Source: Prototheca cutis (Eukaryota > Chlorophyta > Trebouxiophyceae > Chlorellales > Chlorellaceae). From it: DNA of 64,000 bases. The stretch lies in contig BCIH01000014.1 in the NCBI GenBank assembly GCA_002897115.2, positions 245,707 to 309,706 of the forward strand, given 5' to 3'. The notes beneath the pieces were generated by a model. The model was not told the DNA's origin. It searched no databases and was given only the letters and a program-made list of their open reading frames with translations. The stretch's first letter is position 1, and every line of letters starts with the position of its first letter. The position numbers were made by a program, and so were the translations under genes. Below are positions 2,751 to 31,500 of the stretch, in pieces.

Positions 2751-4750
2751 ATGCATCCGGGGGCATACACGGCGGCCAGGCAGCCGATCGGGCTGCTGCG
2801 TCCTCCCGGTGGTGGGAACCTCCTACGGCACTGCACTGTGCCACGGTGCGGGCACAGCATCTTCAGAAAGGGGCCCCCTCCAGCTGCTTGGAGACCGTAC
2901 GCCGGTCCAAATAACGCGGGGCCCAAAATATCAACCGAGGATTTCTGGAATGAGATCATGGGAGGGGACCAGACAGGTCGTAGCGCTGCCCAGAGGGACC
3001 CAACCTCCTCTGACGAGCGGCCTGATGACTACGGTATGCTGGAGTGCCGGCGGTAGGGTCATGCGCCTTTGGTTTGGAATCCTATCATTCATGCACCGTG
3101 GCCGGCTGCGAGAGGAATGGAAGCGTCATGACACTTGGCTGACAAACCTGTCCTCTATCTCATCCCAGTGCGGATGACGCCGGAGCAGGCAGTTGAGGCA
3201 CTGCAGATGGGGAGCTGGAGACTAAGGAGCCACGCCTGCCCGCAAATAGAAGCCCTCGCGGCACAGATTGAGGGCGCATGGAGACTCACATTTGGTAGAG
3301 ACCTCCGGCTCTATTCCAAAACTCACAAGGTCGGTTGGGGGGCCGAGCATTTCAGGCAGGGCTCGCTGCGGTTCTGGAGCAGCTGCATGGTAACAAAGGT
3401 TGCGAGAAACAGTACGTTTAATTGATGCGCACGTGAACATAATACTTAGCCTGACCTGTATCCCCAACTCTCCCCTCCCCCCCAAAAAACACCCAGGAGT
3501 ACCGCTTCATTGACAGTTTGGACATGGAGAAGCAGTACCCGTCATCGTATGCTGAGCTGCTGGATCCTGGTCGTGATGAGCCGGGGTATCCCCGTCTCAT
3601 GCTGGAAAGCAGGGCATATGAGTCTCGTGTCTTCCGCAAGATGTTTTTGGAAGTCTGCATTCAGCAAGACGGCATCCAGGTGAGGTGGGGAGGGGGTTGG
3701 CTTGGGGGCAGCAGTTGGTCCCGTCCTGGAGCACCAGGCGGCAGCGACGTGTCCCCTGCAAGATGTCACTCTGAAGAGGTGGCACTGGGGGTATTGATGA
3801 CCATGTAACGAGCATGGTCACAATTCTGATGATGTCGGCGCCTCACGCAACCCCCCTTGCTGCCACAGCGACACCACAACGTTTCACCAATCCACGATGC
3901 AGAGCGTGCGGTGCCTGATGTACCCCCGGTCAAACTTCGACTTTCCAATATTGACCCTTCAAGCGGTGGCGCTCAACAGCCGCCTTGACTGGGTCTTTGT
4001 GGACGCTTGCCCCGTGAACGCTGAGCAGAGCTTGCCTTCTTTTTACGAGCAGCCCATCAGGTAGCGGGGGGGGGGGGGGGTATTTGCTGGTGGGAGAGGG
4101 GTGTGCGGTGCACCAGCAGTGCAGGGGATCATTGTACCACTTCCCCGGAAGCTGATGAGAAGATATTTTGTCAGCAACAATCTCTTCATCACGTGAACCC
4201 GCATCAAACTCTGTGCAGGGGCATGCTGAAGCAGTACTCTGTGCAACCTTCCCAGGACTTGCCTGGCTGGGCTGTTGAGACTGCTTCCCACATTGCAGTC
4301 TACACCAAGCCCCGCACCCCAGAGGATACCGCCAACATCATCAAGTACTGCATCGCCTTGGTCCGCTTCCAGACCGAGGTAGAGGGGCGGTGATGACCGG
4401 GTCCTGTTCGTCGTAATGAGGCCCTGTTTCGGTGTATGGCTGAAAGGACACAGAGCTTGTGCCTGGTTCGCCCCCAGTCGATATCCACGCTCCGCACATG
4501 AACAAGCTGAACCCCCCGCAAACGGATACAACGACGAGCGCATCCAATGCATCGCATGCAGGTGGGTCGGATCCTCAACCCTGTAACCCCCGGACCGACC
4601 GCAAAGGCACGACTGGAGTCCATCCATGCGGCCCATGGAGCGTATCGCGAACACAGCCTGACCAATGGCAAGATGCAAGCCCTGCTGGCTGGCGCCCTTG
4701 GTCAGGACTGGACTGAAGGTTACCTGAAAAGCTACGTCTTTGACACATGA
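2751..4750 (+). CDS. Ferredoxin-dependent bilin reductase family protein (PcyA-like), putative plastid protein
   Basis: Member of the PcyA/HY2/PebA bilin reductase family, which reduces biliverdin with electrons from ferredoxin. Six exons: 2751-3033, 3169-3329, 3497-3679, 3903-4060, 4219-4378, 4562-4750; 377 residues. Family landmarks seen: PQIEALAAQIEGAW near the N-terminus, ESRAYESRVFRKM, CLMYPRSNFDFPIL, VDACPVNAEQSLPSFY, LPGW and the C-terminal block TNGKMQALLAGALGQDW ending in VFDT. The first about 60 residues are basic and hydroxylated, consistent with a plastid transit peptide, as in green-algal PCYA. Aligned by eye with cyanobacterial PcyA, the catalytic His (LHCVMFP) is Arg (VRCLMYP) and the catalytic Asp (GCDIV) is Gln, so the bilin product, or even activity, is uncertain. 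The exon 2 donor is the least certain junction; an alternative at 3389 also keeps phase. Intron 4 begins with a run of 15 G. Confidence 0.8.
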
Positions 4751-26330: not shown

Positions 26331-26468
26331 CGAAAAGAAAGGGCCGCTATATTTACTCAATGGCTTAATTTCTTCTTTATCCTTTTTCTTGCCAATTCCA
26401 CCAATCTTACCAAGACCACCGAGTCCTTTCAGGCCACCACTGAACTCAACATCATCTTCTTCTGCCAT
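26331..26468 (-). other. AT-rich open stretch with unusual codon use
   Basis: On the minus strand an ATG at 26468 opens MAEEDDVEFSGGLKGLGG, followed by Lys/Ile/Gly-rich sequence. It is rich in GAA, GAT, AAA and ATT codons, unlike the GC3-rich genes nearby. The frame stays open into the next gene start at 26210. It could be an alternative first exon, a recent insertion or a foreign fragment. I recognise no homologue. Confidence 0.4.
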
Positions 26469-26618
26469 ATATTGATCCCTCTGCTTTGCCGGGGTGGGGT
26501 ACGCACCCCACAAGAGATCCGCGAGGGTAACCCAGAAACAAACTGGCCTCACAGCACGTGTTCAATGGTACTGATCCGGGGCGCAGGGCCTGCAGCAAAT
26601 CTTGATGATCAAATCATA

Positions 26619-26876
26619 TCATATCAGGTGGAGCGCCTGGGAGGCAGGGGAACATGCAAGGGGGACGGGCTTGGTTTTGCGGTCAAAAGGCGACGGTCTT
26701 TTGCCGGTCAGGACCAGTCTCTCCCCCAGGTGGCGGATGTTGCGCGCGGCGTTGACGTCGCAGTTCCACACCATGCCACATCTCTGGCATTTGAGGACAG
26801 CGTACTTGTTCTGGGCGGTGCTGCTGTTTGGGTTGCGCGCAGTGCTGCAGGAGGGNCCACTGNCAACCGCGGGGCA
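26619..26876 (-). pseudogene. TnpB/Fanzor-like nuclease relic: C-terminal zinc finger and RuvC-III motif
   Basis: An 85-codon open stretch after an in-frame TGA reads KYAVLKCQRCGMVWN followed at once by CDVNAARNI. This is the C-terminal signature of the TnpB/Fanzor family: the second CxxC knuckle of the zinc finger, then the RuvC-III motif (usually RDxNAAxNI) whose Asp is catalytic. The Asp is kept; the usual preceding Arg is Cys. An upstream cysteine stretch (CPAV, then GPSC) could be the first knuckle. Upstream sequence to about 27200 keeps basic segments (KRHTFMMRRGWEEK) but only in shifted frames, and two Ns (26856, 26863) fall in the fragment. TnpB/Fanzor proteins are RNA-guided nucleases of IS200/IS605- and IS607-like elements, present in green algae. 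I see no intact ORF, recombinase or element ends, so it looks dead. Confidence 0.6.
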
Positions 26877-28034
26877 TCACGTCCACCGGCCTCGTCCCGG
26901 CCTGGAGCACCTGTTGCGCTTGATGCCGGCGTAGCACCTGGGTGGGTGTCTTCTCTTCCCACCCGCGCCGCATCATGAAGGTGTGCCTCTTGCGCGTGCT
27001 TGAAAACCTCAATGCCACCCCTGGCGTGCATGTCCCAGGACAGCCGCCGGTGCAGCCCTCCCTCCGAGGTCGTGCTCACGCAGCAGCAATGCGTCGTGCG
27101 GGGCGGCCCGGTGCCGACCGGGGAGCTGTCCCCGGCCCTGCAACAGCCGGCGCATCGACCAGACTGATACAGTGGCTGCACTACCCATTCCCGCGGTCCG
27201 GCTTCAATGCAGGATGAGGAGAAGGCGTTTTTTGACTGCGGATGTCAACCAACACCAGCCACCACAGCTTCTCAGCCTGACGATGAAGCCCGGCACATGG
27301 ACGACTGGCACGATCCGAGCCAGGAGGCAGTCGGGTGTCGGATCAGCCGGCGGCAGCGCCGGGTCAATCCCCGCTACGCTGAGCAGGATTCATCATGAGA
27401 TATCCATGCTACCAGATCCCAGCAGGCTGCAGTGGACAGCCAGCTGGTCTTGCTGACCCCGAGCGCGGCACCCCCAAGTGGGGAGGATGCTGGACCTTCA
27501 ACCCCGCCCCCCCGCCACACCCTGGAAGACTTTGTCATCAGCGGCATCATGCAGCGCCACATGCTGAAGAACCCAGGCGCACCGAAGGATGGCCATCTTC
27601 GATTCACTCGCAAAGTGCTGAGCACCCGCTCCTCGGAATGCATTGACAAGTGGGCAACAGAGCTGGAAGAAGAGAGCTCTGGGTTGAAATGCCTCCCAGC
27701 GAAGGCTCTGGATCCAAGAAGCGGAAGATCGGGTGGTGGGAACGCAGCTGCCAGAAGTACAGGCAGAGGACCACAGCGAGGCCGGATGCAGGTGCAGAGG
27801 CCCAGAAGACGGTGGCCACAACATAGCCTGTTGCTGAACTTGAATCTGATCCCTAGATAGATTGACCTGCCTCTGTCCGCACAGTACTCCCCTTGATGTG
27901 GCAACAAAGGGCAATTGAATGAGGATATGGAGGCATAAGACGAGATTTTCTTCTGAAATCAACCCAAACAGCACCTGCTCTGGGGCTCAAACAGTGCATG
28001 AACCCTAAGGCGCTTGCTGGCGGCGCGTTTGAAG
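26877..28034. other. Gene-poor region with frame-broken coding-like DNA
   Basis: No intact gene could be modelled. On the plus strand, 27442-27700 reads as GC3-rich coding-like sequence (HTLEDFVISGIMQRHMLKN, then WATELEEESSG). About 27690-27830 is GC3-rich in a different frame (GSGSKKRKIGWWERSCQKY). No convincing splice pair links them, which suggests a frameshifted or decayed gene. An ATG-led short frame at 27207 could be an upstream exon. No family is recognised. The first part may be the decayed N-terminal portion of the adjacent TnpB/Fanzor-like relic on the opposite strand. Confidence 0.3.
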
Positions 28035-28235
28035 AGTGCCATGGGCCGCCGAACGAGAAACCGCAGAGACACTACTCCCATATGCACCCTCAATCCTTTC
28101 ACTATCTCGATTTCTGGAGTTGACAGGCGTTGCGAGGGCCTACACGCGCGGCTTGGTGGCCCCGTCCCCCGCGGCTGCGCAGCCCCCGAACGTCGAAGGG
28201 TGATTGCCCACGAGCGCGCTCCTTTCTGGCCCTGC
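28035..28235 (+). repeat. Dispersed repeat family 2, copy C
   Basis: About 200 bp with similarity, in the same orientation, to 46585-46795. The best block is CGAACGTCGAAGGGTGATTG here against CGAACTTCGAAGAGTGATTG there. Flanking similarity is patchy, including GAGAAACC near the left end of both. It lies about 310 bp upstream of the BRCA2 start. Confidence 0.5.
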
Positions 28236-28545
28236 TCTGTCCTGAGACTAGACTTTTGGTGCGGAATAAACATCATCTTGCAGTCATACAAGGGGGCGCT
28301 GCACGGGTGGTGCACCGGAGGGCCTGGAAGGGATTGTCGAATATCGTGTTTTCCTTTCCTGCTTTGTCTGCGTAGCATGACGATTCATCCTGGGTTTCGA
28401 AACCGCATTCCTCTGTGCGATCAGGCTCTGGCAGATGTCGCTGTGAAAGCGTCATTGCCTTGATTTCTACATGCATGAGCGCATTTTCGCTGTCTGATCG
28501 CAGCTTTCGCCGTGCCATGGGCATGGCTGCTCGAGCGTGAATGAC

Positions 28546-31500
28546 ATGTTGGTGCATGTGGTGGAGCTCCACCAGAATGGGCAGGGCTGGGAGGCCGTCC
28601 CTGCCGGGCCCAGAACACTCCAGACAAACGCGCAGGGGGCCCAGGCTTTGCCTCCTCTCTTTGATGCCCTGAGTGAATTAACAGCGCGTCCTAATGGTGG
28701 GGGGGGGGGGGGGGGGGCCTGTTACCATGTCTTGACCTGTACCTGTGGGGAAGCCCTAGCCATGCTTGCTGGGCACTGGGTTGCTGCTCTGCTCCTCAGG
28801 GAACTCACTGGGATATGGACCAACCCACCACTGGCAAACATGAGCCGCTCAGGGATATGCTCAATGTCCCACACAGATGCAGGAGTCACGCCAGGGCCCA
28901 CACCTGTTTACACACCAAGACCTGCCAGTTTGGTTGGTGCCTCACCGTTCATGGTCTCTGCACTCCAGGGCTCCCGGCGCTGCCCAGGGGACTCTGGGCT
29001 GTCGAGGAGCGAAGGCCGGGTTCCCCCCAGCACCGGGGTAAAGAGCCTGAGGTCCCTTTTCTTGGAAGAGACTGCCTTTCTCAGTCTGCAGCAGCAGCAC
29101 ACACCAGAGTCATGCCGGCTGGTGGGTGGGGACATCAGTCTGAAGACCCTGGGAGGTACGCCCACCCCTCTCGGCATCCCATCCTCGGTGCCGCGGCCTG
29201 AACCCGAGCTGTCGATGCAACCCGCTGAGGCGCAGTTGCCAAGCCGTGGGCCCCCAAGGGGAGTGCCGGCAGGACTGGCAATGTTTGATCTCCCTGACTG
29301 CGATCCCGTGGCCGCGAGCAGTGGTAAGACGAAATTGGCAGTTCGTTTGCTGATTGGCGAGCCTGGCAATTTGCGGGGTTGGTCAACAGCAATGCTACCG
29401 ACTGGCTGAATGCAAGTGTGAGCAGGAGGTTCTGAAGGGCTTCAAAACGCCGACCTGCACATGCCTGCCTGCCGATGCAACATCAACCTGGCCCTTCAAC
29501 CCTCCTTGTTGGTCGGCATGGCAGGCCCATCACCATGTGAGCCGGCAGTGCCCGTTGCTGGGTTTGACTATGACATTGCAACCCAAACGGTGGGAGCGGG
29601 TGTGTCGCAGGATGCTTGGGCAGGTGAGATAGACATGTGGTTGGGTGGATTGGTTGATTGTCTGACAGAGTCGTCATCCATGTGAGCAGCCAAGAACATG
29701 ACAACGGCCAACCCCACGAACCCTCATCCCCACCCCCATGTACCTGTCAGTGGCGATCCCTGTGCCCAAGACCCAGGTTGGACCATCTCCCGGAGATGCA
29801 GGCATGGGGGAGACGGCTGGGGCCCGCAGCACATCCCAGGCTCTGCCACTGTCTCTTCAGGCAAATGCAAACGGCAAGTCACACGGTGCCATGGATGCTG
29901 GGGAGGCTGGATACACACTACCAAATCATCTGGGGTCTTCTGAGGCAGCACCCGCAAGCAACATAGCCCGGCAGCATGACACTGGTCCCATGGAGGGCAT
30001 CCCGGCAACCACGAGCTTTGCCGACAGTGGATGGACGCAGGAGGCAGATCTCGATGGGTTGGACGTGTGCCTGGCAGCCGTGGAGGGTCTCCGACCACCC
30101 GAGCAGCCTGCTTGCATGACCCCAGAGCTGCAGGTCCCGCCTGGCATGTTTGTGACGGGTCTGGGGGCACCCGTAGCCATCGCAACTGACAAGCTGGCAG
30201 CTGCACGGCGGCTGCTGGGTGATGTTGATGATGACGACACTGGCGGCCGTCACGATGCTGCTGACGGCGACCTTGGGAACCGACTCCCGGGTCCGGCTGC
30301 TGACATAGATCAAGCTTCGCCATCATCTGGAGGAGGAGCAGCTCAACAGTCTGCTGTTGTTGAGCTGCAGCCAGCTGCTGAAGAGCCAGCGATGCACAAA
30401 CAGTCCCCAGCCAGATGGATGGCTCCCCATGGTGGCGGGTTTGTCGGCTTCACGACGGGGCTGGGTGTGCCAGTGTCCGTCGATGCTGCACGCCTGGAAG
30501 CTGCCAGGAAGCTGTTGGGCGACGACACCCCTCCCGCCCCCCCTCCAGACAACCCAGAGCCAGAGGCGGAGCGCTATGCAGTGCCTGGGTTCTGCACCGG
30601 GCTGGGAACTCCTGTGCACGTCTCGGCTGCAAAACTGGCGGCCGCGGGATGGCTGCTGCGGGACAAGCCCGAAAGCAGCAGTGGTGGTGGATGTTCGGTT
30701 GATGGTGCCCCAGACGGTGCGGGGCCAGTGCCGGCTTTGCCCAGAGGCCCAACTGTGCCAGAACGTCAACCGGTGCTGGTGGTACCAGAGGATGCTGCTC
30801 CACATGCTGACCAGAATGCAGATGGAGAAGCCTTCCCCGACAGCAACAGACGAACAAGCATCGAGGATGCGAGTTCAGATGGTCTCCTTTCAGCAGCCGC
30901 CGCGACACCCACCGTAGCACTGGGCTTCACCACGGGGCTGGGCACCGCGGTGACCATCTCGGCTGACAAGCTGGCAGCTGCCAGGAAACTGCTTGCAGAT
31001 GATGATAAGACGGAGGACTCCTCTGGGACGACGAACACAGAGCCGCCGCCTCCTGCCAAGGGCAGCGGCACAGAAATCATTCAAAGGACGCCGCTGGGAC
31101 CAAGAGCGCCGCCCGGACATGCCAACACCCCGGGGCCATCATCGGCTTTCAAGCTGGCACCTTGGACTGCTGACAGGGTATCCAGTGGCGTAGCAGCAGG
31201 GACGCCCACGGCCTCGACCCCAGGCCTTCGCAAGTCTGGAAGGTGCGTTGAGGGGTATAGCCCTTGTTGCTGTCCAGGAGCCGATTGTCATCCACGCGTG
31301 TGTGTGAGAGTTCGATTTGAAGGGGTCAAGCCTTGTGGCTTTTGGACTGCTTTGTGGCATGTGACCCTGGCAGCATGAGGTTTTCACCGTCTCGTATCCC
31401 TTTTCTCATCCCAGTCGCCTGGGAATGAAAGGGATGGCCCTGACGACGCCTGGGGTGCAGACCAAGCGACGGAAGTTCCAGACCCCACGAAGCCTGGTCA

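Follow-up and report, generated by a model that had tools for sequence, protein, structure and literature searches.

The zinc-ribbon remnant on the minus strand of the 64,000-nucleotide stretch of Prototheca cutis DNA analysed here (the window) most probably belongs to the 3' arm of a 'ghost', that is non-autonomous, Fanzor1 element that was deleted once, then amplified, and that possibly bears an omega-RNA. We give this reading a probability of about 0.82. An earlier note on the same DNA had taken the remnant for the dead 3' end of a mobile nuclease gene. Our analysis bears out a Fanzor1 C-terminal coding end with no complete nuclease, but places it in an amplified non-autonomous family rather than in a solitary gene. 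The element is bracketed on both sides by the 8-bp target duplication CAAAGCAG and lies in a window of ~60% G+C; its parts are as follows.

26489 to 28358, minus strand: whole non-autonomous element, 1,870 bp (full-length blastn to other copies; boundaries set by the target-site duplication)
28359 to 28366, minus strand: target-site duplication at the 5' end, CAAAGCAG, read directly, with the element read on the minus strand
26825 to 28358, minus strand: 5' arm; L009 (2552-4070) and other long copies have the homologous sequence as their 5' 1.5 kb
26979 to 27860, plus strand: antisense frame with two stops; longer open stretches occur in some other copies
26811 to 26824, minus strand: deletion junction, the remnant of a 14-bp direct repeat GCAGCACCGCCCGG, of which one base differs in the window
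26619 to 26807, minus strand: Fanzor1 C-terminus remnant (PF07282 above cut-off; related to 95 tails)
26489 to 26610, minus strand: 3' end matching the structured (candidate omega-RNA) region of the family; decayed, its terminal hairpin without the apical part
26494 to 26511, minus strand: terminal palindrome GTGGGGT-GCGT-ACCCCAC
26481 to 26488, minus strand: target-site duplication at the 3' end, CAAAGCAG

Identity of the coding remnant

The zinc knuckle and following CDVNAARNI reported in the earlier note are present: KYAVLKCQRCGMVWNCDVNAARNI is located at 26807-26736 (minus strand), inside an 85-aa stop-to-stop frame at 26619-26876 that reads ...KYAVLKCQRCGMVWNCDVNAARNIRHLGERLVLTGKRPSPFDRK... 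and also encloses two N positions. The comparison with Pfam that the note had proposed for these 85 residues gave a match to PF07282 (Cas12f1-like_TNB, the TnpB/Cas12f zinc ribbon) with E 6e-6; its 26.8 bits lie just over the cut-off of 26.3. The remaining three Pfam models listed for the frame each scored under their own cut-off, NCBIfam models of Cas12f2/TnpB gave weak matches that fall far short of their cut-offs (E 1e-4 to 6e-3), and in a phmmer search of the PDB chains named OrfB or transposase ranked first (E 0.019). When the host genome (19.9 Mb, 23 contigs) was searched for relatives of the tail, the best 150 of 256 candidates were scored, and among these 95 distinct places, down to E ~1e-8, make up the family; second pieces of one tail are omitted from this list, and C7:276402-276536 (E 9e-11) also stands outside it. 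The best other member by E-value is 85% identical to the window tail. With 95 related places in the same genome and a best relative this close, a chance match is excluded. Lower-scoring rows of the search are mostly 38-50% identical, and the four that we inspected (L073-L076) are other Fanzor-like tails. Three of them (L073, L074 and L075) represent a second Fanzor-like family, CSACxKPLRLGDCPT...CQNEACGVVHNR(D/N)KNAA(R/Q)NM, ~40-45% identical to the window tail; L076:3864-4721 (plus strand) holds a third, divergent tail (CCKC...CPACGVIHRCDDNAGANI) that scores below the cut-off of PF07282 and shares the Cys ahead of the RuvC-III Asp.

The remnant at 26619-26807 consists of the second zinc knuckle CQRC, the RuvC-III motif (N)CDVNAARNI, the C-terminal GKRP..FD and the stop codon. 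RuvC-I, RuvC-II and the first knuckle are absent, as is a complete D-E-D nuclease frame. The window copy is dead as a protein and, with only the second knuckle and RuvC-III remaining, is not itself a Fanzor. The further cysteines seen upstream are not the first zinc knuckle but left-arm sequence joined to the tail by deletion. As for the Arg-to-Cys change before the RuvC-III Asp, which had been called unusual, it is present in the window but not unique, being found also in L002, L003, L006 and L007 among the tails displayed.

Long copies carry a multi-exon Fanzor1 gene

The expectation of further copies in the same genome held good: there are longer relatives of 3.2-6.5 kb as assembled, several with N gaps, that bear on one of their strands a Fanzor1 gene of several exons. 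These long copies encode GIDPGRK, VVFMGNASF, EVDEFRTSQ, CSAC..CQSC and VWNRDVNAARNI. The DPG of RuvC-I is seen as GIDPGRK in L009, L012 and L013 and as GIDPGXK in L010; the C4 zinc finger is followed by the RuvC-III Asp (CSAC..CQSC..NRDVNAARNI), and PF07282 is matched in L012 with E 2.9e-12. A GC-AG intron of 171-279 nt is predicted in 12 copies (7 long copies and 5 of a second deletion form described below). It sits between DEFRTSQ and ICSAC, starting CAG/GCGC and ending CCGCAG/AT; in L023 the acceptor has CAT in place of CAG (CCGCAT). Reading through the predicted intron breaks the frame in 2 of the 12 copies, and its removal yields DEFRTSQICSAC in 11, the twelfth having an N. Given splicing of this intron, DEFRTSQICSAC is an exact Glu-x6-CxxC. 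Descriptions of the Fanzor signature in Yoon 2023 (PMC10711439) include this alternative Glu, Glu-x6-CxxC, together with a RuvC-I bearing DPG. We accordingly file the long copies, classed from sequence only, as Fanzor1.

AlphaFold2 run on three long-relative sequences returned a pLDDT of 38, too low for a usable model, and when the L012 exon was compared with the PDB by phmmer the best E was 0.013. A homologue search in which 7995 candidates were scored found none, and a search with residues 290-632 found one relative, P0001, a 642-aa ENA protein (E 8e-5). P0001 shares GIDPGRK, ETYTSQICSEC, VWNRDRNA and GKRPQAFD; it differs in being ~30% identical over the alignment and in lacking the insert that separates the Glu from the zinc finger. 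Viral contigs gave 28 pattern matches and 0 relatives.

One deletion between direct repeats, then amplification

The window from 26495 to 28348 aligns by blastn as one piece to L002-L008, L019 and L025-L028, and as two blocks to the long copies L009, L012, L014, L015 and L017. For L009, window 26502-26824 corresponds to 8351-8038 and window 26813-28348 to 4070-2552. From this two-block homology we conclude that the window copy corresponds to a long element from which ~4 kb is missing. The TGA and shifted frames that had been held to break the upstream part of the gene find another explanation here, since everything upstream of 26824 is 5' arm, joined to the tail by one clean internal deletion. 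Among the best 40 of 137 candidates, at least 36 copies including the window span at least 1,600 of the 1,881 query bases at an identity of at least 83%.

The 14-bp word GCAGCACCGCCCGG was sought at the two break points of eight long copies. It is intact at both in L009 (perfect at 4059 and 8038), L010, L012 and L014, altered at one or both in L013 and L017, and altered and single-sided in L015 (left only) and L011 (right only). The derivatives displayed have a single copy of GCAGCACCGCCCGG, with left sequence before it and right sequence after it. When up to 3 mismatches are allowed, a 30-mer across the fused junction has 67 matches in the genome and its reversed control 0. The fused junction adjoins 64 of the 95 listed tails, three fused places being without a listed tail, and the remaining 31 tails include more-changed derivatives (L002, L019, L040). 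At the junction-bearing loci examined, the flanks differ from one another. A tree built on the 5' arm common to both forms separates 23 derivatives from 5 full copies by a branch with 100/100 support; most derivatives join as a star, the median end branch of the tree being 0.09 and its bootstrap not fully settled. All 23 tested derivatives lie on one side of the 100/100 branch, which argues for one deletion followed by amplification, and the presence of the same deleted form at at least 64 sites indicates that the window form moved after the deletion. These data show that the window form arose when ~4 kb was lost between a pair of 14-bp direct repeats and that the deleted form was amplified to at least 64 sites with target duplications of ~6-10 bp.

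Other rearranged forms were also seen. A second internally deleted form of ~1.14-1.17 kb, with frames of 230-266 aa, is found at L018, L020, L021, L022 and L023 and retains the half of Fanzor that runs from RuvC-II to RuvC-III. L002 and L005 combine the 5' arm of the derivatives with 3' hairpins of the long-copy type (z ~-6), a mixture that suggests exchange between ghost and long copies.

Codon periodicity in the 5' arm was never significant in the frames tested. The antisense frame within it is open for 310 aa in L026 and 374 aa in L033; a third-position excess was absent in 23 derivatives (p 0.63), and 5 full copies gave p 0.09, so that in the window copy it is probably not a protein gene. 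We also considered this antisense ORF2 as an accessory transposase and rejected the idea, because it is open in few copies and has no codon periodicity in the 23 derivatives.

Around the element, a start codon (MAEEDDVEFSGGLKGLGGLGKIGGIGKKK...) stands at 26466-26468 (minus strand), 12 bases past the 3' target duplication; given this start codon, the element lies directly upstream of an apparent coding exon. Farther along, a 558-aa frame at 29702-31378 (plus strand) matches the BRCA2 repeat model PF00634 (E 3.2e-8). A chlorophyll-binding (LHC) domain was not found in the host genome, the same search being positive in 1 of 14 control genomes (a cyanobacterium).

Structured 3' end and target sites

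The region around and beyond the stop, where a guide RNA had been anticipated, is the expected place for one. The last 128 nt of L012 form a row of four hairpins (z -6.8), the second of which has the stop codon TGA in its loop. Over 32 copies, which are kin and hence non-independent, tail RNA folding has a mean z of -3.1 (-4.8 in the 7 long copies, -2.7 in the remaining 25); upstream segments (n=26) gave 0.2 and flanks (n=22) 0.0. The 3' end of the family can form strong hairpins in tandem, which in the long copies extend over the stop codon. For the window copy the folding z is -0.1 and the top of the terminal hairpin is gone; it is very likely dead as a guide RNA too. Covariation of the terminal stem was at the level of shuffled alignments (301 pairs against a shuffle mean of 299.9, with 1429 of 5000 shuffles as high), and the 2 double changes in it were equalled by 231 of 5000 shuffles. 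Nor is the 3' end better conserved than the rest when derivatives are compared: its last 120 nt, like the 60 nt at the 5' extremity, are among the most variable parts. At the Rfam gathering threshold, the window and six loci gave no match. An extra hairpin whose length is highly variable while its pairing is kept was noticed in the 3' ends of some derivatives, namely L044, L054, L042, L062 and L068, for example CTCTCCACCGGG...CCCGGTGGAGAG in L044 and L054.

By analogy with known ghosts, these hairpins may constitute an omega-RNA scaffold, the guide being the stretch of host DNA immediately beyond the 3' end. The grounds for this reading are position, family structure and precedent; constraint is not among them.

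Target duplications were assessed on 47 end pairs, of which 8 were dropped as their end, truncated or changed, did not match the search pattern. A word of at least 7 bp is common to both ends in 19 of the 39 pairs kept, whereas 1000 derangements averaged 1.1 such pairs and never had more than 6; the duplications are ~6-10 bp long. At 15 of 22 insertion sites a CG falls within -1 to +3, where ~3 would be expected from the 0.046 per step in the flanks. Beyond this CpG lean, the flanks show no clear TAM motif. Similarity between the two ends of the kind expected of long TIRs is weak (2 of 8 comparisons at or below 0.01, both with the L018 5' end).

The mobilising enzyme was not found in genome searches for MULE, Helitron_like_N and PIF1 or in Pfam scans of two copies. 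The MULE transposase PF10551 was hit 0 times in the host genome, as was Helitron_like_N PF14214, for which a silent control renders the search uninformative; a PIF1 helicase occurs at one locus. The Pfam scans, covering the L009 plus strand and the L012 minus strand, returned PF07282 alone in the former and nothing in the latter. Six loci inspected for the same end beside another gene gave none that was convincing. Only the final 27 bp of the element are present at L078:3692-3718, in sequence that is otherwise unrelated.

Proposed history and alternative explanations

The history begins with a long element carrying a multi-exon Fanzor1 gene, in which deletion between the 14-bp repeats took away nearly the whole gene and spared the 5' arm, some 60 codons at the end of the gene and the 3' end. 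The deleted form then amplified, inserting with target-site duplications. Ghosts would be moved in trans by an enzyme that recognises the ends they share with long copies; the same layout in Spizellomyces ghosts suggests such mobilisation by analogy. The coding remnant would owe its retention chiefly to its overlap with the RNA and the terminus. Conceivably, Fanzor from long copies also loads ghost guide RNAs and cuts element-free homologues. Extended to the whole family, this last step would turn the ghosts into a distributed guide-RNA library, in which each of at least 64 loci makes an omega-RNA guided by its own flank and Fanzor from longer copies cuts ghost-less chromosomes in trans. We regard this extension as rather unlikely; if true, ghosts would spread or stay through RNA-guided drive.

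The most serious competitor to a guide-RNA function is that the structured 3' end, and with it the retained coding tail, serves the mobilising enzyme as a DNA signal, for instance as a terminal hairpin for a nuclease of the HUH/Helitron2 kind. Precedent comes from the CRe Fanzor1 elements of Chlamydomonas, whose description in PMC3627910 includes end hairpins, target duplications of ~7-19 bp and internal deletions, and the present family has a terminal palindrome and duplications of ~6-10 bp. By eye, 5' ends are shortened in L010, L013, L018, L025 and L037, and the solitary 27-bp 3' end in L078 points the same way. However, the four hairpins across the L012 stop codon exceed what a terminus needs, PIF1 is at one locus only and targets are CpG-leaning rather than TTTT. 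On balance this explanation stands somewhat below even odds.

Movement by target-primed reverse transcription, as in LINEs and SINEs, would account for a fixed 3' end, target duplications of variable length and several 5'-shortened copies. Yet the long copies retain their predicted introns, poly-A is absent from the 3' ends displayed, and no reverse transcriptase was detected in the L009 plus strand or the L012 minus strand; we consider it improbable.

Two further explanations have next to nothing left to recommend them. A solitary Fanzor 3' end that decayed in place through stops and frameshifts would agree with a PF07282 match in an isolated, short, N-bearing frame that no in-frame nuclease precedes, but the DNA upstream is a different 5' arm common to other copies, and the junction shared by 67 places and the target duplication of the window copy itself already refute it. 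That the short frame encodes a zinc-ribbon protein or peptide which has been exapted and is functional, as its openness in many copies and a protein identity of ~80% in the best rows might suggest, is just as hard to maintain, since its third-position excess is not significant over 23 copies (p 0.14), several copies contain stops and the catalytic partners are missing.

Comparison with known systems

Mutator-like elements and Helitron2 were considered as possible host transposons of the ghost Fanzor1 family. Mutator-like elements combine a MULE transposase, long TIRs and target duplications of 9-11 bp; here PF10551 had 0 hits, similarity between ends is mostly no higher than in shuffles and duplications are ~6-10 bp. 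Helitron2 elements have RepHel, ATIRs and insertion after TTTT; this genome has one PIF1 locus and CpG-leaning targets, and its 0 hits to PF14214 are uninformative.

One of the closest parallels is Spizellomyces punctatus, for which Saito 2023 (PMC10432273) reports 134 ghost Spu-1 loci without a Fanzor ORF against 42 coding ones, the omega-RNA end being kept; in the assays described there, ghost omega-RNAs from four loci worked about as well as an improved canonical RNA with SpuFz1 in human cells. The present family likewise has the ends of Fanzor loci, lacks a complete Fanzor ORF and is multicopy. As far as Spu-1 is described in that paper, the two are alike in that protein-less copies share their ends and a 3' region of omega-RNA type and outnumber the coding copies, here at least 64 of 95 tails. 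Spu-1 ghosts hold a conserved region of ~550 nt between 30-nt inverted repeats, as portrayed there, whereas the present element is 1.87 kb long, with ~60 Fanzor codons, a 1.5-kb 5' arm, weak inverted repeats and a single repeat-mediated deletion. The Discussion of Saito 2023 treats the role of Fanzors in their carriers as an open question. In open-licence literature, Fanzor and ghost were found together only in that paper, and Fanzor and Prototheca only in PMC12633428. The latter describes an uncharacterised Fanzor element as the most abundant repeat of another trebouxiophyte, Auxenochlorella UTEX 250-A; the comparison with our family is by this description only.

Among green algae, Bao and Jurka 2013 (PMC3627910) portray CRe-1, CRe-2 and CRe-3 of Chlamydomonas reinhardtii as non-autonomous Fanzor1 elements. 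According to their account, the likeness extends to a multi-exon Fanzor1, internal deletions, 5' shortening, variable target duplications and structured termini. CRe elements differ in sharing Helitron2 ends and inserting after TTTT or T-rich tetranucleotides, as opposed to one PIF1 locus and CpG-leaning targets here. Fanzor1 elements with internal deletions and variable target duplications are thus a kind already known from Chlamydomonas, as set out in that account. What is distinctive in Prototheca is that a single repeat-mediated deletion underlies the derivatives and that the deleted form is numerically dominant. The alga would be the second lineage in which nuclease-less Fanzor derivatives outnumber longer ones while keeping a candidate guide-RNA end, lending independent support to the model of trans-acting ghosts. 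The single origin of the deletion allows elements to be compared before and after gene loss, and the small genome suits testing of the ghost model.
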